From the NCBI GenBank assembly GCA_001799195.1, contig MGSU01000172.1:1-10392 (forward strand): a stretch of DNA of 10,392 nucleotides. Reading direction: 5' to 3'. A program made the translations under genes and the position numbers. Source of the stretch: Deltaproteobacteria bacterium RIFOXYA12_FULL_61_11 (GTDB taxonomy: Bacteria; Bdellovibrionota_F; JAHFAK01; YA12-FULL-61-11). Below the pieces are notes generated by a model. The model ran no database searches. It worked only from the letters and a program-made list of their open reading frames with translations, and was not told where the DNA came from. Shown one piece after another: positions 1-10,392 of the stretch (the first letter of the stretch is position 1; each line of letters begins with the position of its first letter).

Positions 1-3000
1 ACTCTCTCCTATACCATGACCGTCGGCGGCACGGCGACCGCCGGCCTGATCAACGCTACGGCCACGGCCGTCGGCCAGGATCGCAACAGCGGGGCCGCCA
101 CCAGCGATGCCACCCGAGCTGTCTCGGACAGTTTCACGGTGCAGCGTCCGGCGATGCTGGAGATACTCTCGGTGACCTTGGCCGACGAGGCCGTGGTCAC
201 GGTCAGCAAGGGACAGACCGGACTCCTGGTCAATCTCGTCGGACGCAACAGCGGTGGCGTGCGGGCCACTTCCCTCGCGGCCGACCTCCAGTTCAAAGCG
301 GCCAACGGGAACCTCAAGAACACCGATTTCACCGTGCTCGCCGACGGCGGCAATCCGACCTTCCTCGAGTCCGGGGCGAGCGGCACCTTCGCCTTCACGG
401 TCACGGTCAAGGGCACGGCCGCCTCCGGTCCGACCACCGTGGACGGCGCGCTCACCGGTACCGATGCCAATAGCGGTGCCACGCTGAGCGATGATGCGGC
501 CAGCACCTCAGATCAGGTGACGGTCCAGACCCCGGCGGTGGTCACCCTCGTCTCGGTGACCGAGAGTTATCAAAACGTCAGCCAGGGGCAGACCGACCTT
601 GCGCTGACCCTGAGCGTGAATAATCCGGGTCAAGCCACCGCCCTGGTCGGCACCATCGCACCCGTTTTGAAGGATGGTCTGGGCAACGATCTCAGCGGGA
701 GCGACTACTCGATCGTCGCCGCGCCGGACAATCCAGTCAGCATTGTCGGTGGGGCTACGAGCACCTTCGGTTTCACGCTCGCGGTTGCCCCGGGGGCCAC
801 GACCGGGGGTATTACCCTGGATGGCCGGGTCACGGCTTCCGACGCCAACACCCTAGCGCCGCTCAGCGACACCTCGGCGACCACGACGGGAGCGTTCACG
901 GTCCAGACACCTGCCCAACTGCGCGTCAACTCCGTGACCACCACGCCGTTGACGGTCAGTCGCGGGCAACAGAACGTCCTCGTTACCGTGAACGTGAGCA
1001 ATCCCGGGCAAGCCACTGCGACCATCGGCAGCACTGCCCTGGGGTTTACGGATGCCCTCGCGGTCAACAGGAACAATGACTACACGGTGACTCCTGGAGA
1101 GAACCCCTCCAGTATCGCGGGCGCGGCCAGCGCCAACCTCACCTATCGCTTCGCGGTTGGCACCGTGGCGACCCTCGATCTCATCACCCTCGACGCCAGG
1201 GTGACGGGGAGCGATCAGAACAGCGGCGCAGCCCTCCTCGACAATGGCGCCGACAGTACCGATGCCTTTACCGTCCAGACCTCCGCGAGCCTGGAAATCC
1301 TTTCGGTGAGTTGTCCTGCAAGTACCGCGGTTCGCGGCCAGACCGGGCTACCGGTGACGGTCGCCATCCGCAACAACGGTCAGGCCACGGCCACGTTCTC
1401 CAGCCTCCAGCTTGCCCTGACGCGGGATGGCGGAAACGTGGATACAGAATTTATCGTCGCGGTCGATCCCGCTAATCCCACCTCACTCGCAGGAGGAGCC
1501 ACGCTCAATTTCCTCTTCGATCTTACTGTCGGTGGGAGCGCGGTACCTGGCAACGTAATCCTGGATGCCGTGGCCGTCGCCGCGGATGCAAATACCGGGG
1601 GCAATGCCGGGGACAGTGGTGCCGGACAGCCCGACAGCCTGCTCGTGAAGACCCCCGCAAGCCTGGAACTCCTCACCGTGGCCGCCTCGAGAGCGCAGGT
1701 CAGCCGTGGGCAGACCGGTCTCGGAGTCACCGTGACCGTGCGCAACAACGGAACCTCCACCGCCCTGATTGGAAGCAGCTCACTGCGTTTCACCCTTGGT
1801 GGAGATGTCGGCGCTCAGTATTCGGTCGTCGCGGCTCCCGGCAATCCGACCCAGGTCGAGGGTTCGGCCCAGACCACGTTCCAGTACACCGTGGAGGTTT
1901 CCTCTGCCGCGACAGCGGGGGCTCTGGTCATCGATGCCTCGGTCGGCGGCACCGATCAACTCAGCGGTGCGGCGACCTCAGACCTTGCCGCGGCCACGCC
2001 GGCCTCGGTCCAAGTCCAGACCAATCCGGTACTGGACCTCGTCAGTGCGACGTGTGTACCGGCCTCGGTCTCTCGGGGGCAGACGGGTATTCCCTGTACG
2101 GTCGTCCTGCGCAATACCGGGCAGGCCTCCGCCGTTCTTTCCGAGGTAGCCCTGAGTTTTACCAACAGTGCCCTCCAGGATGTCGGAGCCCAGTTCGGAA
2201 CCACCCCCTCTCCGGCGAATCCGACGAGTCTCGCCGGCGGGGCTTCGGCCAGCTTCTCCTTCACCGTGGACGTCGACCCTGCCGCCGGCAGCGGTGACAT
2301 CGCGGTCGATGCCCGAGCCAGCGGCAGTGATGTCAATAGCCTGGCTGCCGTCACCGACCTCGGAGCCACGACAGCGGACCTCGTCGTCGTGCAAACTCCC
2401 GCGGCGGTGGCTATCAACTCGGTCAGCAGTGCGGTACTCCAAGCAAGTCCCGGCCAAACAGGCATTCTTGTGACGGTCGGACTGACCAACTCCGGCGAGG
2501 CCACAGCCAACCTCGACGGGCTCACCCTGAACGTGCGCAATGACGCCGGTGTTGGGCGCACCAGCCTCTATGAACAGCAACTCCAAGGCGCAACAGGGGT
2601 TCTCGTCGGCGGCCAGAGCCGCACGTTCTCCTTCCTGCTCGGTGTCAAGACGACGGCCATCGTCGAGACGGTCAACCTCTTCGCCGTGCCCGTAGCCACG
2701 GATGCCAACAGCGGTGCTATCGCGGCCGTGAGCGGCACGAGCGTCAAACATATTCTCGCGGTGCTCGCCCCCGCAACCCTACATCTCGAACAACTCGCCT
2801 TCCCCGCACTCCTGCAACCCTACCGGGTCAGCAAAGGGCAGAGCGGCATCTCGGTCACGGCCTTGGTACGCAATACTGGTCAGGTTACCGCCAATCTCGG
2901 AAGCGGTGGACTCTCCTTCGCTCTTGGCGGTCAGGACCGCGGACTCGATTACCAGGTCGAACCCGACGGGAGCAACGCCGCAACCCTGGCCGGAGGAGCG

Positions 3001-6000
3001 ACCACGATATTGACGTATCAGGTGACGGTCACGTCGACCGCGCTCGTCGGTACGGTTGTCGTCGATGCCTCGATCAGCGGCAGCGATGCTTTGTCCGGGT
3101 TGACGGTAACCGATGCCGGGGTTGATGTACCGCCGAGCTGGGTGGTCCAGACCCCCGCCGCCTTGGCGATAACCGCGGTGAGCACGGTGTCGACCTCGGT
3201 GAGCAGAGGGCAGGATGGTTTGGCCGTGGGAGTCACAGTCCGCAACAACGGCACTGCCGGGGCCGATACCCTCGTCGCCACTCTGATTTTCAAGGACGGT
3301 CTGGGCAACACGCTCACCCCTGAATACACGATCACCGCGGACCCCGGCAATCCGACCTCCCTCGCAGGAGGAGCTGTCGGGACCTTCGACTTCACGGTCG
3401 CGCTCTCATCCGGCGCGACCCTCGGATCCATCAAACTCCTGGCCTCGGTCACTGGACGGGACGTCAACACCGGCCTCGGTCTGGCCGATGCCCCCACCGG
3501 GATCTACGATACCTGGACGGTCCAAGTTCCCGCTTCCTTGGGAATTACTTCTGTGGGTGTGGATCCGCTCAGCGTCAGCCAGGGGCAGCAGGACTTCGTG
3601 GTGACGGTCGAGGTGGAGAACACCGGTGGGGCAGAGGCGACCCTCGCGGCCCTGAATCTGACTTTTACCACGCTCGCCGGGATGAGCAAGACCTCGCAAT
3701 ACACGGTCAGCGCGGTCCCCGGGAATCCCGAGAGCATCACCGGAGGGGGGACGGAAACCTTCACCTTCGCGGTCGATGTCGCCCCGGCGGCCACGACCGG
3801 GACGCTGCGCGCGGATGCCACGGTCCAGGGCAGCGATGCCAATAGCGGCGCTCTCATCACAGATCTCGACGGTGCGTCCTCGACCGACACCTTCCTCGTC
3901 CAGACCCCCGCGGTCCTGATCCTTTCCTCCGTCCAAACCGCGCCGACAGAGGTCTCCCGCGGACAACAGGGGATCTCGGTGAGCATGGTGGTCGAGAACT
4001 CAGGTCAGGCGACGGCAAGCATCTCGGGTTCCGGGCTGAGTATCTTCGACCAGAACCAGCTCGAGAGAACCGGGTTGGATTATCAGCTCCAGAACGGAGC
4101 CAATCCGACGAGCCTCCCCGGTGGGGGAACGGGCACCTTCACCTTTACCCTCGGTGTGAAGTCCACGGCCCAAACGGGTAGCATGACTCTCGACGGTTGG
4201 GTACAGGGGACTGACGCCAACTCAGGGGCGGTCAAGAACGATACCGCGGCAGCGAGCCCCGACACTTTCCTCGTCCGCGGCGGAGCCCAGCTCTCCATCG
4301 CTTCGGTCAGCACCGTGCCGGCAACCGTGAGTAGGGGCCAGACCGGTGTAGAGGTCTTGCTGCAGGTGACCAATACCGGGGACGCGCAGGCCGTCCTCGG
4401 AGGCAGTTCCCTGGTGTTGAGCGATGCGGCCAACAACAATCGCAGTAACGAGTACACGGTCGTCCTGACCAACCCCGTCGCTACCCTGGCCGCGGGACAG
4501 AGCGCGGTCCTGGACTTCGAGGTTTCCTTAGCGCCGAATGCGACCACGGGCCCCATCACGCTCGACGGGAGCGTGGCGGGCACCGATGCCAATTCCGGAG
4601 TCACCATAGGAGACATTTCTGCCGCGGTGACCGACGTTTTCCAGGTCCAGACCCCGGCCGTGCTGAGTGTCGGGACGGTGTCGGCCCTCCCTGCCACCGT
4701 CAGCCGCGAGCAGAGCGGCATTGTTGTCACCGCGCAGGTGAGCAACACGGGCCAGGCCCAGGCGACAGGGCTCGCTACGACCTTGCTCTTCAGACAGGGT
4801 CAGGCCGACGTTGGGTCGAGTTTCACCGTGACGCCTGCGGACGACAACCCCACCGCGCTCGCGGGCGGAGCCCAAGGCACGTTCTCGTACACGGTCGCGG
4901 TAGCGGCCGGTTCGGTCCTCGGCGCGGTGACGCTGGATGCCCGGAGCGATGGGACCGAGGGCAATACCGGTCTGGGTATCGCGGACTCTGCCGCGGCTAC
5001 GATCGACGTCTTCACCGTGCAACGCAAGGCAGGGTTGGTCCTCGACATCGCGACCCTGGCTCCGCTCGCTGTGAACCGCGGGCAACAGGGATTGTCGGTC
5101 TCCTTGGGAGTCAGCAACCCTGGGGAGGCTTCAGCGGTTCTGTTGAGTTCGGGTTTGACCTTCTTTACCGGGGGAGGGGCTAATGTGGCCTCCCAGTACA
5201 CCGTATTGGCCGATCCGAGCAATGTCGGTACGGTCCCCGGCGGTGGAACGGTGACCCTGCGCTATACCGTGGAGGTCAGCTCCTCTGCGACCCTGGGAAC
5301 CATCAACCTCGACGGCGCGCTGACCGGGAGCGATGCCAATTCCGGAGCTGCCCTGACGGATACGGGAGCGGCGAGTCCTGATGCCTTCACAGTCATGGTG
5401 CCCGCCTCTCTGGCCCTGCAATCGGCTGCGACCACTCCCCTTACTGTGTCGCGAGGGCAGGGCTCTATACAGGTGACCCTGGTCGCCACAAACCCGGGTG
5501 GGGCCCTGGTCAACCTCACCGGCGTCACACCGACCTTCCGCGATGCCGGAGGCATTCCCCAGGCTTATACCGTGACGGCGGACCCGGCCAATCCGACCTT
5601 CCTCGCAGGTGCTGCGACCGGTACCTTCAACTTCTCCCTTGCCATCCCGGCCGATGCGGTGACGGGTCCGGTCACCCTCGACGGAACGATCAGCGGCACG
5701 GACGCCAATTCGGGAGCAGTGGTCAGCGATGGCGGCGCGGCCACGACCGACTCCTTCACCGTGCAGACCGCCGCGGTCTTGCGAGTTCTGTCCTTGGCCG
5801 TCGGCCCGGCCAAGGTCAGCCAGGGGCAGAACGGGGTGACCGTGACCGTGCAGGTCAAGAACGACGGTCAAGCGGTCCTCGTGCTTGGCAACGCGACCTT
5901 AGTCTTCCAGAAGGACAGTCGCGGAGACGTGAACAACGACTATGTAGTCGTTGCCGGTGGAGGGAACCCGGCGTCGTTGTCCGCCGGCCAGGCTGCCGAG

Positions 6001-6150
6001 TACACCTATACCGTGCAGGTCTCGGCCTCTGCGGTGACCGGGCTCATCACCGTATGGCCGGAGTTCTCCGGCACGGACGCGAACAGCGGTACGGCTGCTG
6101 CACTTATCGGCGGCGACCTCGGCGACACCGTCCTGGTGCAAGTTCCTGCC
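1..6150 (+). repeat. Tandem array of ~125-residue Ig-like units (one partial, 16 complete)
   Basis: Units are delimited by the closing VQTPA-type motif. Approximate ends: 153 (partial), 537, 915, 1287, 1659, 2028, 2403, 2775, 3159, 3534, 3912, 4287, 4659, 5031, 5406, 5775 and 6150, giving periods of 369-384 bases. Each unit runs: hydrophobic start (xLxIxSV), VSRGQxGxxVTVxVxNxG near residues 13-32, a YTVxxxPxNPTSLAGGA stretch in the middle, TFxFTVxV, xITLDxxVxG, DANSGA near residue 105, and FTVQTPA. Variants are scattered: VSREQ in the unit starting 4660, ASPGQ in the unit starting 2404, AVRGQ in the unit starting 1288, and VRGGA instead of VQTPA at 4273-4287. The units are clearly paralogous in protein but well diverged in DNA, so this looks like an old array kept by selection on the fold rather than a recent duplication. 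Confidence 0.93.
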
Positions 6151-8214
6151 GGTCTGACGGTGGCGAGCGCCGTGACCTTTGTTCCCGCGAGCGGAGCAAC
6201 GACCGACGATATCATCCTCATCAAGCTGACCGTAACCAATCCCGGCGGAGACAGCGCCCTCAACCTCGACCCGGTGAATAGCCTCAGCCTCGAGGGTACT
6301 GCGGTCCTGGTGCAGAGCGGGGGGCCTTCGCCGGCCGTGGCCGGGACCCTGCTGGGTGGGGGAAGTCAGGTCTTCACCTATAGTTATACGGCCACCACGG
6401 CTGGAGATGTCACCGCGGTCAACGGCTTCTCTGTGGTCGGTGTGGATCAGAATCGAGGGGTTCCTCTCTCTGCCTCCAGGAATATCGCGCTCTCACCCGT
6501 GTACACCATCGTTGCTGTTATACCGCGACTGAGCGCGAAGGACCTCGTGCTCCTGGCCAGCGTTACCGAGGAGAAGGAGGCGAGTCAGGGCCAAGGCGGA
6601 CTTCCCGTGACCTTGCGGTTGTTCAACGCCGGGAGAGCCCCGCTCGAGGTCTCGGGCGCGGGACTCTCTCTGCCCGTCGCGTCGACGCTGTGGAGCGCGA
6701 CCGCGGTCCGGACACCAGATTCCCTCGGGCCCGGCGAGAGCGCCGTGGCCGAGTTGCGGCTCGAGCTCGGAGAGGCCTTCCCCTCCGGCCTCCATAGGGT
6801 CGGAGGTTGGGTCAGTTTCCGCGATCCGACGAACGGGGCCTTCTTCCGCAACGATGCGGTGATCCACCGCGATTGGCTCCAGGTCCTGACGAGGGCAGAG
6901 TTGGTCGTGGAACGGCTCGAGACCGAGGTCGCTTACCTCCGACCGGGCCAGGAGGGGGTGTTGTGGCAGGTGGAGCTCTCCAATCGCGGGCAAGCTCCAG
7001 CTCGCCTGGCCTCCTTCTCCCTGCGGGTACTCGGGGAAGACGGCTCCGACCTCACCTCCTCTCTCGAACTCGTGCCGATAGAGCCCTTGGACGAGGTCAT
7101 GGTGTCGGGAGGAAGCCTGATCCGGCTGAATCTCGTGGTCGGAGTGGAACCCTGGTGCGGTTCCGGGTCAACCTCAATAGACGCAACGCTGGGCTTCTTC
7201 GACCTCTTCAGCGGTCGGGGGTACGAGGGGGCAACCCGTGGCTTGGCAGGGCCGGAGCTCGGCGCCCCGTTCGTCCGCACCGGGCAGGTCATGCTCCCGG
7301 AGGCAGCGGGCAACCCGATCGTGGTGCAGGATCGTCTCGTGCTGACCCATGCTCACGGATTGCTCCAAGGAATGCTGAGGGATGGAGCGGTTTCCGGATG
7401 GTTCGAACTCGGCGGCAGCTCCCTCTCGAAAGTACGAGGAGACGTCACCGGCCTGCATGTACTGAGCGATACGGGACTCAGGCGGTTGGAACCGGCTGCG
7501 GAAGAGCGTTGGAGGGAAGAGTTGCTCCGCGATCGGGTACCCCTGCGCCGAACCGACCGATTGTTGGCACTCGAACTCGACCAGGATGGTCGGGCAGAGG
7601 TGCTCCTGGCCGCTGCGGCGCAGGCAGTCGTCCTCGCCGGTTCATCGGGGTATCCGCCGGGTACCCGGGTGCCTCTTGCCGGGATCCAGGATGCCTTGGC
7701 CGGAGGTGTCGGTTGGGGGGTGCTCGCCGATCAGGCCCGGAAACTCCATCTGTTGTGGTTCGAAGAGGGGAGGCCGATGCTTCGCCTCCTCTCCGAGGGG
7801 GGCGGCAGGCGACTCATCAGGATTGGCCGCTTCGACGACACTGCCGAGCTGACGACCGTGCTCGCTTATGATGGCGAGGGCGTGAACGTGCTGCGGTTGG
7901 GAGCCGATGGGGTTCTCGTCGAACAGTTCGGCGGGGAGCATTTCGGCGTAGGCCCGGCCGACCGGTACCTGGTCGCCGATCTCGATGCCAATGGCTACGA
8001 CGATCTGGTCGGTCTCCGCGACGGCAAACTCGAGCTTCTCTTCAACCTCGGCGGATGGTTCCAAGCTGTCCCGCTCCAGGTCGATGAAGGGATACAAGAG
8101 CTCGTGCTCGCCGACCTCGATTCTGAAGGAGGCCACGATCTGATCACCCTCGGCAAGAACGGGCTGACCTCATGGCGGAACGATATCGTCCTCCGCGAGG
8201 GTGGAGGACGTTGA
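1..8214 (+). CDS. Giant Ig-like repeat protein with FG-GAP/VCBS-like C-terminal domain (5'-partial)
   Basis: At least 2,737 residues are visible. The frame is open from base 1 and stops with TGA at 8212-8214. The first ATG (16) is not the real start: the translation TLSYTMTVGG from base 1 aligns with the interior of other units (for example TFSYTVAVAA), with the Met replacing a strand Val. At least one unit fragment and any signal peptide therefore lie upstream. From the left: a partial unit, 16 full units of 123-128 residues, three divergent units, then a ~310-residue C-terminal part with FG-GAP/VCBS-type motifs. The composition (rich in Ala, Gly, Thr, Val, Ser; only four Cys) is typical of secreted beta-sandwich stalks. 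The first half of each unit (VSRGQ then VTVxVxNxG) resembles CARDB/DUF11-type Ig-fold modules, but this is a resemblance by eye, not a search result. Likely role: long cell-surface or secreted structural/adhesive protein. No sortase motif or transmembrane segment is seen at the C-terminus, which ends VLREGGGR. Function is inferred from architecture only. Confidence 0.93.
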   Translation, partial: TLSYTMTVGGTATAGLINATATAVGQDRNSGAATSDATRAVSDSFTVQRPAMLEILSVTLADEAVVTVSKGQTGLLVNLVGRNSGGVRATSLAADLQFKAANGNLKNTDFTVLADGGNPTFLESGASGTFAFTVTVKGTAASGPTTVDGALTGTDANSGATLSDDAASTSDQVTVQTPAVVTLVSVTESYQNVSQGQTDLALTLSVNNPGQATALVGTIAPVLKDGLGNDLSGSDYSIVAAPDNPVSIVGGATSTFGFTLAVAPGATTGGITLDGRVTASDANTLAPLSDTSATTTGAFTVQTPAQLRVNSVTTTPLTVSRGQQNVLVTVNVSNPGQATATIGSTALGFTDALAVNRNNDYTVTPGENPSSIAGAASANLTYRFAVGTVATLDLITLDARVTGSDQNSGAALLDNGADSTDAFTVQTSASLEILSVSCPASTAVRGQTGLPVTVAIRNNGQATATFSSLQLALTRDGGNVDTEFIVAVDPANPTSLAGGATLNFLFDLTVGGSAVPGNVILDAVAVAADANTGGNAGDSGAGQPDSLLVKTPASLELLTVAASRAQVSRGQTGLGVTVTVRNNGTSTALIGSSSLRFTLGGDVGAQYSVVAAPGNPTQVEGSAQTTFQYTVEVSSAATAGALVIDASVGGTDQLSGAATSDLAAATPASVQVQTNPVLDLVSATCVPASVSRGQTGIPCTVVLRNTGQASAVLSEVALSFTNSALQDVGAQFGTTPSPANPTSLAGGASASFSFTVDVDPAAGSGDIAVDARASGSDVNSLAAVTDLGATTADLVVVQTPAAVAINSVSSAVLQASPGQTGILVTVGLTNSGEATANLDGLTLNVRNDAGVGRTSLYEQQLQGATGVLVGGQSRTFSFLLGVKTTAIVETVNLFAVPVATDANSGAIAAVSGTSVKHILAVLAPATLHLEQLAFPALLQPYRVSKGQSGISVTALVRNTGQVTANLGSGGLSFALGGQDRGLDYQVEPDGSNAATLAGGATTILTYQVTVTSTALVGTVVVDASISGSDALSGLTVTDAGVDVPPSWVVQTPAALAITAVSTVSTSVSRGQDGLAVGVTVRNNGTAGADTLVATLIFKDGLGNTLTPEYTITADPGNPTSLAGGAVGTFDFTVALSSGATLGSIKLLASVTGRDVNTGLGLADAPTGIYDTWTVQVPASLGITSVGVDPLSVSQGQQDFVVTVEVENTGGAEATLAALNLTFTTLAGMSKTSQYTVSAVPGNPESITGGGTETFTFAVDVAPAATTGTLRADATVQGSDANSGALITDLDGASSTDTFLVQTPAVLILSSVQTAPTEVSRGQQGISVSMVVENSGQATASISGSGLSIFDQNQLERTGLDYQLQNGANPTSLPGGGTGTFTFTLGVKSTAQTGSMTLDGWVQGTDANSGAVKNDTAAASPDTFLVRGGAQLSIASVSTVPATVSRGQTGVEVLLQVTNTGDAQAVLGGSSLVLSDAANNNRSNEYTVVLTNPVATLAAGQSAVLDFEVSLAPNATTGPITLDGSVAGTDANSGVTIGDISAAVTDVFQVQTPAVLSVGTVSALPATVSREQSGIVVTAQVSNTGQAQATGLATTLLFRQGQADVGSSFTVTPADDNPTALAGGAQGTFSYTVAVAAGSVLGAVTLDARSDGTEGNTGLGIADSAAATIDVFTVQRKAGLVLDIATLAPLAVNRGQQGLSVSLGVSNPGEASAVLLSSGLTFFTGGGANVASQYTVLADPSNVGTVPGGGTVTLRYTVEVSSSATLGTINLDGALTGSDANSGAALTDTGAASPDAFTVMVPASLALQSAATTPLTVSRGQGSIQVTLVATNPGGALVNLTGVTPTFRDAGGIPQAYTVTADPANPTFLAGAATGTFNFSLAIPADAVTGPVTLDGTISGTDANSGAVVSDGGAATTDSFTVQTAAVLRVLSLAVGPAKVSQGQNGVTVTVQVKNDGQAVLVLGNATLVFQKDSRGDVNNDYVVVAGGGNPASLSAGQAAEYTYTVQVSASAVTGLITVWPEFSGTDANSGTAAALIGGDLGDTVLVQVPAGLTVASAVTFVPASGATTDDIILIKLTVTNPGGDSALNLDPVNSLSLEGTAVLVQSGGPSPAVAGTLLGGGSQVFTYSYTATTAGDVTAVNGFSVVGVDQNRGVPLSASRNIALSPVYTIVAVIPRLSAKDLVLLASVTEEKEASQGQGGLPVTLRLFNAGRAPLEVSGAGLSLPVASTLWSATAVRTPDSLGPGESAVAELRLELGEAFPSGLHRVGGWVSFRDPTNGAFFRNDAVIHRDWLQVLTRAELVVERLETEVAYLRPGQEGVLWQVELSNRGQAPARLASFSLRVLGEDGSDLTSSLELVPIEPLDEVMVSGGSLIRLNLVVGVEPWCGSGSTSIDATLGFFDLFSGRGYEGATRGLAGPELGAPFVRTGQVMLPEAAGNPIVVQDRLVLTHAHGLLQGMLRDGAVSGWFELGGSSLSKVRGDVTGLHVLSDTGLRRLEPAAEERWREELLRDRVPLRRTDRLLALELDQDGRAEVLLAAAAQAVVLAGSSGYPPGTRVPLAGIQDALAGGVGWGVLADQARKLHLLWFEEGRPMLRLLSEGGGRRLIRIGRFDDTAELTTVLAYDGEGVNVLRLGADGVLVEQFGGEHFGVGPADRYLVADLDANGYDDLVGLRDGKLELLFNLGGWFQAVPLQVDEGIQELVLADLDSEGGHDLITLGKNGLTSWRNDIVLREGGGR
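6151..7287 (+). repeat. Three divergent Ig-like units closing the array
   Basis: Three further units can be traced at about 6151-6528, 6529-6897 and 6898-7287. The first keeps VTNPGGDSA and GVDQNRG, but its VSRGQ position reads SGATTDD. The second has ASQGQGGLPVTLRLFNAG and FRDPTNGA and closes VLTRA. The third has LRPGQEGVLWQVELSNRG and closes FVRTG. Charged residues (Glu, Arg), Leu and Trp are much more frequent than in the preceding 16 units. They probably form the transition between the regular stalk and the C-terminal domain. The unit limits are less certain here than in the regular array. Confidence 0.7.
7288..8211 (+). other. C-terminal FG-GAP/VCBS-like (beta-propeller type) domain of the giant protein
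   Basis: The last ~308 residues are not Ig-like units. They contain recurring Asp-rich loops between hydrophobic strands: LELDQDGRAEVLLA (around 7573), LVADLDANGYDDLVGL (around 7969) and LVLADLDSEGGHDLITL (around 8101). A weaker RFDDTAELTTVLAYDG lies near 7831. Spacing between the two clearest loops is 45 residues. This DxDxNGxxD pattern is typical of FG-GAP/VCBS repeats, known to bind Ca2+ and build integrin-like beta-propellers. Only three strong motifs are visible, so a full seven-blade propeller is not shown; earlier blades may be degenerate (for example LVLTHAHGLLQGM and LHVLSDTGLRRL, 7340-7490). This end may be the ligand-binding or processing end of the protein. Inference from motif pattern only. 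Confidence 0.65.
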
Positions 8215-8561: not shown

Positions 8562-8567
8562 AAGGAG
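8562..8567 (+). promoter_or_regulatory. Shine-Dalgarno sequence of the tandem-nuclease gene
   Basis: AAGGAG lies six bases (ATCCCC) before the ATG at 8574. Together with the signal peptide that begins exactly there, it decides the start over the two in-frame ATGs further upstream (8436 and 8496). Confidence 0.8.
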
Positions 8568-8573
8568 ATCCCC

Positions 8574-10392
8574 ATGAACACCCTGCACGAGCTCTTCCGG
8601 CGGACTTCGCTGGTGTTGTTGCTGTTGCTCGTGGGGTTGCCGGGTCTGCTCCGGGCCGATGACGCGCTGAGTCCGGAGGACGATGTCGATCCGGCGACCG
8701 GGGAAAGCCGCGCGATCGTGGAGACGGCGCGGCCGGGGAATGGGGCCAAGGGTGAGGTACCCCCCGGAGAGAAAGAGGCGTTGTCGCACAAGAGCCCGTA
8801 CGTGCTCTTCCCGTGGACCACGCTCAAGGCCAAGGTGTTGAAGGTAGACGACGGCGACTCGATCGTGGTGGATATCTACACGCCGGAAGGGAAGCTGTAC
8901 GCCCGCAACGAGGACATCCGACTGACCGGGTTCGACTCTCCCGAGACGCACATGGAGTACAAGCGGGAGATAGGCGGCACGGTCAAGTTCTACCGGCAGA
9001 GCCAGATCGGCGGCGAGGAAGCGGCCGAGTTCATGAAGACGCTGTTGCAGCCCGGGGACGAGATCGAGATCGTGATCCCGGACGTGTCCAAGACGGGGAA
9101 GCATTGGTACAAGACCTACGCGAAGTATCAGCGGTGCATCTACGGCCGGCTTCTGGGCATGATCTTCGTGCAGCGTGGTGGGAAGAAGGTCTTCATCCAG
9201 GAAGCGATGGCACGGGCCGGGCAGGGTTATTACTACCACTACCTGCCGGTGGATCCGACCAAGGAAGGGGTGTTCCCCGAGGAGCACTTCGAACGGATCC
9301 GGAAGGCGGCGATCGCGGCGCAGGCCGAGGGTCTGGGCATCTGGCAACCTGCTCCGGGCGGTGTGACGAGGTTGCTGCCGCACGAGTTCCGCCGGATCGC
9401 GCGCAATAAAACGACGATGGCGTTCGTGGCCAATCCCCGGACCAAGGAGTTCGTCAGCCTGCCCTACATCCGGGTTTTCGGCAAGGACGTGGCTGGGGCG
9501 GTCAACGTGTCGACCTTCAAGGACGCGATCGACCTGGGTTACACCTATCGCATCGTGGACCCCTCGGAAGCAGCGCGGCTCCTGCCCAAAAGTTTGACCG
9601 ACCTGGTCGAGACGCACGAATTCGAGCCCGAGAACCCGGATAAGGTCGGCTGGTACGAGGAAGCGGTGCTGAAGCCCGGGACGGCGTACAAGGTGAAGAT
9701 CGTGCGCATCCTGGACGGCGACACGGTGGCCGTGAAGATCGCGGGCAAGAAACCGATGAAGTGGTACGCGGACGGGACGCAGTACGAGGAGTGGACCGTG
9801 CGGTTCCTGCACAACGACACGCCCGAGTCCGTGTTCCGGCCGAACCTTCCGCAGCCAGGAGGGAAAGAGGCGCGGCAGGCCATGGCCGAGTTGCTCGGCG
9901 TGGTGATCACGGACATGTCGACCGGGGAGGACGAGCAGCGCGAGGCGATCCGTCCGAAGAAGGGATTTTTCCAGGTACTCAGCCCCCAGGGCAAGGTGCT
10001 CGGGTCCTCGATCGAGGCTACTGTGACGACGGGCGTATCCGCGGTCGATAGTTACGGCAGGATCCTCGGCACGATCGAGGTCACGAACAATGGCGAGCGC
10101 AGAGGCAAGCAAGGAACCCTGGTGCTCAACTTCGAGATGGCGGAGAACGGGTTCGCCTGGCCGGCGTTCTACCTGACTCCGGGCTTCGACTGGAAGGAGT
10201 GGCGGCGGTACTCCGAGGCCTTCAACCAGGCCATCGCCAACGAGTCCGGGTTGTTCCAGCGCGAGCTCTTGCTGCAGGGCAGTATCCACGAAACCCCGTC
10301 CCAGAACCGGGCTCGCCTGAGCGGCCGGCCCTGTCAGCGCATGCTCGGAGTCCTGGGCTTCGATGAGGGCAGCGAAGAGCCGATCATCACCG
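8574..10392 (+). CDS. Secreted tandem staphylococcal-nuclease-like (SNase/TNase) protein, 3'-partial
   Basis: The frame opens at ATG 8574 and runs without a stop past the window end (606 codons seen). The start is supported by AAGGAG six bases upstream and by a signal peptide: MNTLHELFRR, a Leu/Val-rich core at residues 13-26 and probable signal peptidase I cleavage after LRA (28). Residues 29-80 are an acidic, Pro/Gly-rich spacer. Two SNase domains follow, at ~84-257 and ~372-562. Both keep the equivalents of staphylococcal nuclease D21, R35, D40, E43 and R87: D95, R116, D121, E124, R192 in the first, and D383, R410, D415, E418, R496 in the second. SNase-family enzymes are Ca2+-dependent phosphodiesterases that cut DNA and RNA; this one would act outside the cytoplasm. 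Single-domain bacterial thermonucleases are usually 150-250 residues, so the two-domain layout and length are unusual. After residue 562 the sequence (LLLQGSIHETPSQ...) is not recognised. Codon use resembles the upstream gene. The calls of fold and intact active site are confident; substrate is unknown. Confidence 0.9.
   Translation, partial: MNTLHELFRRTSLVLLLLLVGLPGLLRADDALSPEDDVDPATGESRAIVETARPGNGAKGEVPPGEKEALSHKSPYVLFPWTTLKAKVLKVDDGDSIVVDIYTPEGKLYARNEDIRLTGFDSPETHMEYKREIGGTVKFYRQSQIGGEEAAEFMKTLLQPGDEIEIVIPDVSKTGKHWYKTYAKYQRCIYGRLLGMIFVQRGGKKVFIQEAMARAGQGYYYHYLPVDPTKEGVFPEEHFERIRKAAIAAQAEGLGIWQPAPGGVTRLLPHEFRRIARNKTTMAFVANPRTKEFVSLPYIRVFGKDVAGAVNVSTFKDAIDLGYTYRIVDPSEAARLLPKSLTDLVETHEFEPENPDKVGWYEEAVLKPGTAYKVKIVRILDGDTVAVKIAGKKPMKWYADGTQYEEWTVRFLHNDTPESVFRPNLPQPGGKEARQAMAELLGVVITDMSTGEDEQREAIRPKKGFFQVLSPQGKVLGSSIEATVTTGVSAVDSYGRILGTIEVTNNGERRGKQGTLVLNFEMAENGFAWPAFYLTPGFDWKEWRRYSEAFNQAIANESGLFQRELLLQGSIHETPSQNRARLSGRPCQRMLGVLGFDEGSEEPIIT
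8823..9344 (+). other. SNase domain 1 of the tandem nuclease
   Basis: The domain covers residues ~84-257. It starts LKAKVLKVDDGDS (Asp 95 as the D21 equivalent; Ser replaces the usual Thr), continues IRLTGFDSPET (R116, D121, E124), GGEEAAEFMKTLL, and IYGRLLGMIFV (R192), and closes FIQEAMARAGQGYYY...AEGLGIW, as family members do. Compared with staphylococcal nuclease the loop between D95 and R116 is seven residues longer, and the E124-R192 stretch is about 24 residues longer. These are family alignments done by eye. Confidence 0.88.
9687..10259 (+). other. SNase domain 2 of the tandem nuclease
   Basis: The domain covers residues ~372-562. It starts YKVKIVRILDGDT (D383), continues VRFLHNDTPE (R410, D415, E418), GGKEARQAMAELL, and SYGRILGTIEV (R496), followed by LNFEMAENGFAWPAFY, the counterpart of the usual 'VNxALVxxGxAxxxxY' segment. 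All five catalytic-site positions are present, so it is unlikely to be a dead copy. The region between E418 and R496 is 34 residues longer than in staphylococcal nuclease. The domain is clearly diverged from domain 1, so the duplication is old or the two were acquired separately. Confidence 0.85.

Follow-up and report, generated by a model that had tools for sequence, protein, structure and literature searches.

Does a bacterium export a single protein with two SNase domains, both with complete catalytic sets, and what would such a protein do? This question was raised by a gene at the end of the window, which is the whole stretch of DNA that was analyzed (10,392 nucleotides). The window covers contig C172 in full, from a MAG of 4.64 Mb in 342 contigs that was 87% complete and yielded no 16S. 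The gene starts with the ATG at 8574, and its frame has no stop before the contig runs out at 10392. It encodes 606 amino acids, with its 3' end cut off (Table 1). The sequence was read correctly, and the enzyme is a familiar one in an uncommon arrangement.

Table 1. Features of the two-domain SNase gene in the window
Feature	Position	Strand	Evidence
Shine-Dalgarno-like AAGGAG, 6 nt upstream of ATG	8562..8567	+	read from sequence
Two-SNase-domain protein, 606 aa, cut by contig end	8574..10392	+	ORF, Pfam
Signal-peptide-like N-terminus, aa 1-28: RR, hydrophobic L13-L26, LRA/DD boundary	8574..8657	+	hydropathy, N-terminal helix in model
SNase domain 1 (SN1), aa 81-258	8814..9347	+	Pfam, alignment, model, structural comparison
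SN1 catalytic residues	D95 (8856), R116 (8919), D121 (8934), E124 (8943), R192 (9147)	+	alignment
Linker, aa 259-368 (110 residues), low-confidence model	9348..9677	+	profile search, AlphaFold2
SNase domain 2 (SN2), aa 369-562	9678..10259	+	Pfam, alignment, model, structural comparison
SN2 catalytic residues	D383 (9720), R410 (9801), D415 (9816), E418 (9825), R496 (10059)	+	alignment
C-terminal extension, beginning	10260..10392	+	paralogue continues 89 residues, then stop

The Pfam SNase family (PF00565) matches the protein in two stretches, scoring 52.1 bits where the cut-off is 21. Both domains were detected separately in the genome-wide scan. The second alone scored 18.9 bits and exceeded the cut-off only when its frame neighbors were counted (29.1 bits), so SN2 is the more diverged domain. 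SN1 and SN2 share 23% identity. In an alignment with SNase relatives from other genomes, their catalytic sets are the equivalents of SNase D21, R35, D40, E43, and R87. The sequence-only reading had claimed two domains with both sets complete, and the Pfam matches and aligned residues agree with it. The secondary active-site residues are partly changed. The K84 position aligns with I189 in SN1 and S493 in SN2, and conservation at the Y113 and Y115 positions is not clear in the alignment of the window domains. These changes need not mean lost activity, because S. aureus Nuc2 is active with 2 of 9 residues missing (PMC3994088). SN2 also has an HNDTPE motif, which is unusual, along with a large insertion of ~50 residues. 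The protein scored far below the NCBIfam equivalog cut-offs for NucI (32.5 versus 250 bits) and EcnA (32.9 versus 180 bits). It has two domains where the single-domain secreted thermonucleases have one.

Phmmer searches of PDB sequences yielded chance hits only (CD2), so structural comparison was needed. The AlphaFold2 model had pLDDT values of ~90 to 97 in the SN1 core and 84 to 93 in much of SN2. Most of the linker was below 50 (mostly 30 to 50), and the pTM of the whole model was 0.48. Both domains are predicted to form the OB-fold barrel with SNase helices. Aligned to solved SNases with VIA-align, SN1 gave a Z score of 17.9 (rmsd 2.0 Å over 130 residues) and SN2 a Z score of 17.4 (rmsd 2.0 Å over 132 residues). 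Structure prediction had been proposed as a check on the two sites, and assembly of both is supported at the level of predicted fold and residue identity. The domains span 178 (SN1) and 194 (SN2) residues, compared with about 130 to 137 in solved SNases (~135 in SNase), which confirms the enlarged loops described earlier. The N-terminus, MNTLHELFRRTSLVLLLLLVGLPGLLRADD, has the charged, hydrophobic, and LRA/DD regions of typical signal peptides. By hydropathy and the LRA motif, the region ahead of the domains fits a putative signal peptide.

The linker had no family match in the profile search. The idea that it is a decayed Ada-like zinc module was rejected, since a profile built from such modules gave the linker a score no higher than those of shuffled sequences. 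These modules trail SNase domains in several relatives and possibly in two SNases of this genome. Those two are single-domain proteins on C211 (L009, 1363-2070) and C9 (L010, 878-1654). Each contains an SNase domain followed by an HxxxC...PCxxC tail that resembles an Ada-type zinc module. The D21 position is K or R (VVDGKT and VLDGRT), and their SNase domains are possibly noncatalytic.

The genome contains two further pieces of the gene's family, on contigs C287 and C132. C287 carries a copy from aa 304 to the end that is 90% identical across the shared part. This copy runs 89 residues past the window edge and then stops. Even with the E threshold relaxed to 10, its tail did not match any Pfam family, and no Tudor match was found by Pfam in the window protein or the paralogue tail. 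The missing 3' end of the window gene, which the earlier reading had proposed to recover, would accordingly resemble the paralogue, with 89 more residues and a stop; the window copy itself is still cut at 10392. Further domains beyond the C-terminus had been suggested and are unlikely. C132 ends within the N-terminal region of a copy that is 84% identical over aa 10 to 46, and its upstream DNA is different. A single second gene probably has its two ends on C132 and C287. Exact overlaps of 28, 48, and 89 bp lie where the contigs end.

Comparison of the window gene with C287 gave a dN of 0.055 and a dS of 0.323, for a ratio of about 0.17 (NG86), and 59 of 92 differences were at third positions. 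The second half of the protein has therefore been kept by purifying selection between the copies. All SN2 catalytic residues are unchanged in the paralogue. Locus L004 on C287 also contains tandem near-identical peptide repeats, GDCREAGLQRRAGGKRRR, at 1682 to 1869 on the minus strand. The repeats adjoin an N run and lie close to ORFs resembling Lcl/DUF1566-type repeats. Genuine tandem DNA and assembly noise are both possible explanations for them.

No whole-protein relative was found in genome_contigs, viral contigs, phages, or 386 genomes across the tree. Plasmids carried only single-domain SNases with 23 to 28% identity, and with no phage hit either, a phage or plasmid origin was rejected. 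A role in anti-phage defense was also rejected, as the only match was a weak SNase-level one to PADLOC 'SNc+LTD' (2.2e-5). In a PF00565 survey, 129 of 241 genomes encoded an SNase. The one other genome of the host's class in the survey was without one. Apart from the window genome, tandem frames appeared among the matches listed in one genome alone, Candidatus Dadabacteria J088, which had two. A model of this pair covered both halves only in that same genome among 386 genomes. The same model was then used to scan 84,980 named species, and the best 80 of 247 loci were kept. Two-domain SNase ORFs made up 4 of 82 in this set. Because the query was itself a tandem and peptide patterns had to match exactly, the tandem counts are lower bounds.

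Two of the four were the Dadabacteria frames (L017 and L018), whose first domain is without E43. The other two came from Deltaproteobacteria MAGs (JAUWWP010000057.1, L019; CP070770.1, L020). They contain 312 residues, signal-like N-termini, and complete D/R/D/E/R sets in both domains. Secreted-looking proteins with two complete SNase domains were therefore already present in public bacterial genomes. No paper on bacterial tandem SNases was found in the open-access literature. The architecture with two complete domains is uncommon, not unique. The premise that bacterial SNases normally have one domain is weakened by these four other bacterial tandems. The comparison with other genomes left the protein without a whole-length relative but not without counterparts in layout. 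What sets the window protein apart is the length of its linker, its large loops, its tail, and its lack of close relatives, the last of which is partly due to poor sampling of the lineage. A Jorgensenbacteria MAG encodes two separate adjacent SNase genes (L047, 2483-2920 and 3117-3548). They are a possible picture of the pre-fusion state.

The protein resembles the S. aureus Nuc-type secreted thermonuclease (PF00565) in its fold, five catalytic residues, and signal-like N-terminus. It differs from that type in its two domains, larger loops, 110-aa linker, and 89-aa C-terminal extension. Identity to the Nuc type over aligned residues was 26 to 28% for SN1 and 21 to 23% for SN2. Nuc and Nuc2 are secreted Ca2+-dependent extracellular nucleases (PMC3994088, PMC3505149). 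The Deltaproteobacteria proteins share the signal-like N-terminus and the two domains with complete sets, but their linker is short (~20 aa) and they are without enlarged loops or a tail. The Dadabacteria proteins (L017, 1876-2784; L018, 2036-3352) also have a signal-like N-terminus and two SNase domains. Their linker is short, and PIAD replaces PE at E43 in the first domain, whereas the second is complete. By analogy, they form a bacterial parallel to the degenerate repeats of Tudor-SN.

Tudor-SN (SND1/TSN) shares the tandem SNase domains. It is eukaryotic and intracellular, with four tandem SN domains and a fifth, SN5, that carries an inserted Tudor domain, and its catalytic residues are mostly degenerate; the window protein has two SNase domains only. 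The C. elegans protein, TSN, has degenerate metal-binding residues in SN2, SN4, and SN5, but SN1 and SN3 each retain a calcium-binding aspartate, and most activity is lost only in the SN1/SN3 double mutant (PMC5900569). It thus has at least two active SN domains, so eukaryotes already provide a documented case of two working SNase sites per chain, and the contrast drawn earlier with Tudor-SN was overstated. What remains of it is the complete five-residue set in both domains of the window protein.

In a FastTree phylogeny of 92 domains, SN1 and SN2 were sisters (support 0.885) inside a weakly grouped set of SNases from their own genome (0.829). The two domains of the Deltaproteobacteria tandems were also sisters (0.971). 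These separate sisterhoods suggest that the window tandem and the Deltaproteobacteria tandems arose by separate internal duplications. The tree is no more than suggestive, because very long branches lead to the two window domains (with about 2.6 substitutions per site between them) and their sisterhood may be long-branch attraction. Most likely, an SNase domain was duplicated internally in the host lineage and the whole gene was copied afterwards.

We favor, with a probability of about 0.62, a secreted, two-headed enzyme of the SNase type that is Ca2+-dependent and sugar-non-specific and whose heads are independent. We infer that the protein would be exported and its signal cleaved. By the SNase mechanism, each domain would bind Ca2+ through the D21/D40 aspartates, and the E43/R35/R87 set would cleave single- or double-stranded nucleic acid. 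The two heads would probably act independently on a flexible tether, which may raise the avidity and rate of extracellular DNA and RNA breakdown. The role could be nutrient scavenging or matrix turnover. The two Pfam stretches, complete residues, high-confidence folds, selection between paralogues, domain sisterhood, and low-pLDDT linker count for this reading, as does the Ca2+-dependent extracellular activity of known secreted SNases such as Nuc and Nuc2. The changed K84 and Y113/Y115 positions, the HNDTPE motif and insertion of SN2, the long branches, the uninformative neighbor, and the contig edges shared with paralogues count against it.

The main competitor, which we consider possible but clearly less likely, is that cutting is done by one head, with the other serving mainly to bind or position nucleic acid despite its retained residues, a division of labor like that in Tudor-SN or the Dadabacteria proteins. 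The divergence of SN2 (its low score alone, motif, and insertion) fits this division of labor, as does the loss of E43 from the first Dadabacteria domain, which indicates that such asymmetry evolves. SN2 nevertheless keeps its five canonical residues, identical in the paralogue despite a dS of ~0.32, and its fold model is sound. Processive or paired cleavage, which the sequence-only reading had raised as a possibility, has no support here. Two complete sites in one chain on a 110-residue linker might act together on one substrate, nicking it in pairs or freeing short fragments, but the model predicts no fixed arrangement of the heads, given its low pTM and low linker confidence. SNases are generally distributive endo/exonucleases, and coordinated cleavage appears improbable. 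We similarly give little credence to the combined proposal that the family is confined to one poorly sampled class, that two active heads cooperate on one chain, and that the family-specific linker and tail are substrate- or matrix-binding modules.

An assembly chimera of two different SNase genes is the least probable explanation. The MAG is in 342 contigs, and all three paralogue-bearing contigs end inside the window gene at exact repeats. A join could lie near 9482 to 9509, where contig edges meet paralogue-shared sequence. The 606-codon reading frame is unbroken, however, and tandem SNases occur elsewhere. The genome also contains only two N-terminal and two C-terminal halves, all of one family, which means that a swap could only exchange parts of near-identical copies. 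Such a join leaves the architecture the same unless SN1 and SN2 belong to different genes, which the unbroken frame argues against.

The SNase enzyme class itself is well known. Bacteria do have SNase proteins with two active-site sets, probably of more than one origin, and this is relevant to the possible formation of the multi-SNase ancestor of Tudor-SN. As natural two-headed nucleases, they offer a test of whether linked SNase sites change product size or substrate range.

Upstream, at a distance of 359 bp, the gene's neighbor encodes a CARDB-repeat protein. A pathway could not be assigned from it, as there is no arguable operon. This neighbor is a giant open-start ORF (window 1-8214) of at least 2,737 aa, with its N-terminus cut by the contig. 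It contains repeats with CARDB and DUF4352 matches and an FG-GAP-like C-terminus (Pfam). Its overall appearance is that of a large repeat protein, either secreted or on the cell surface.
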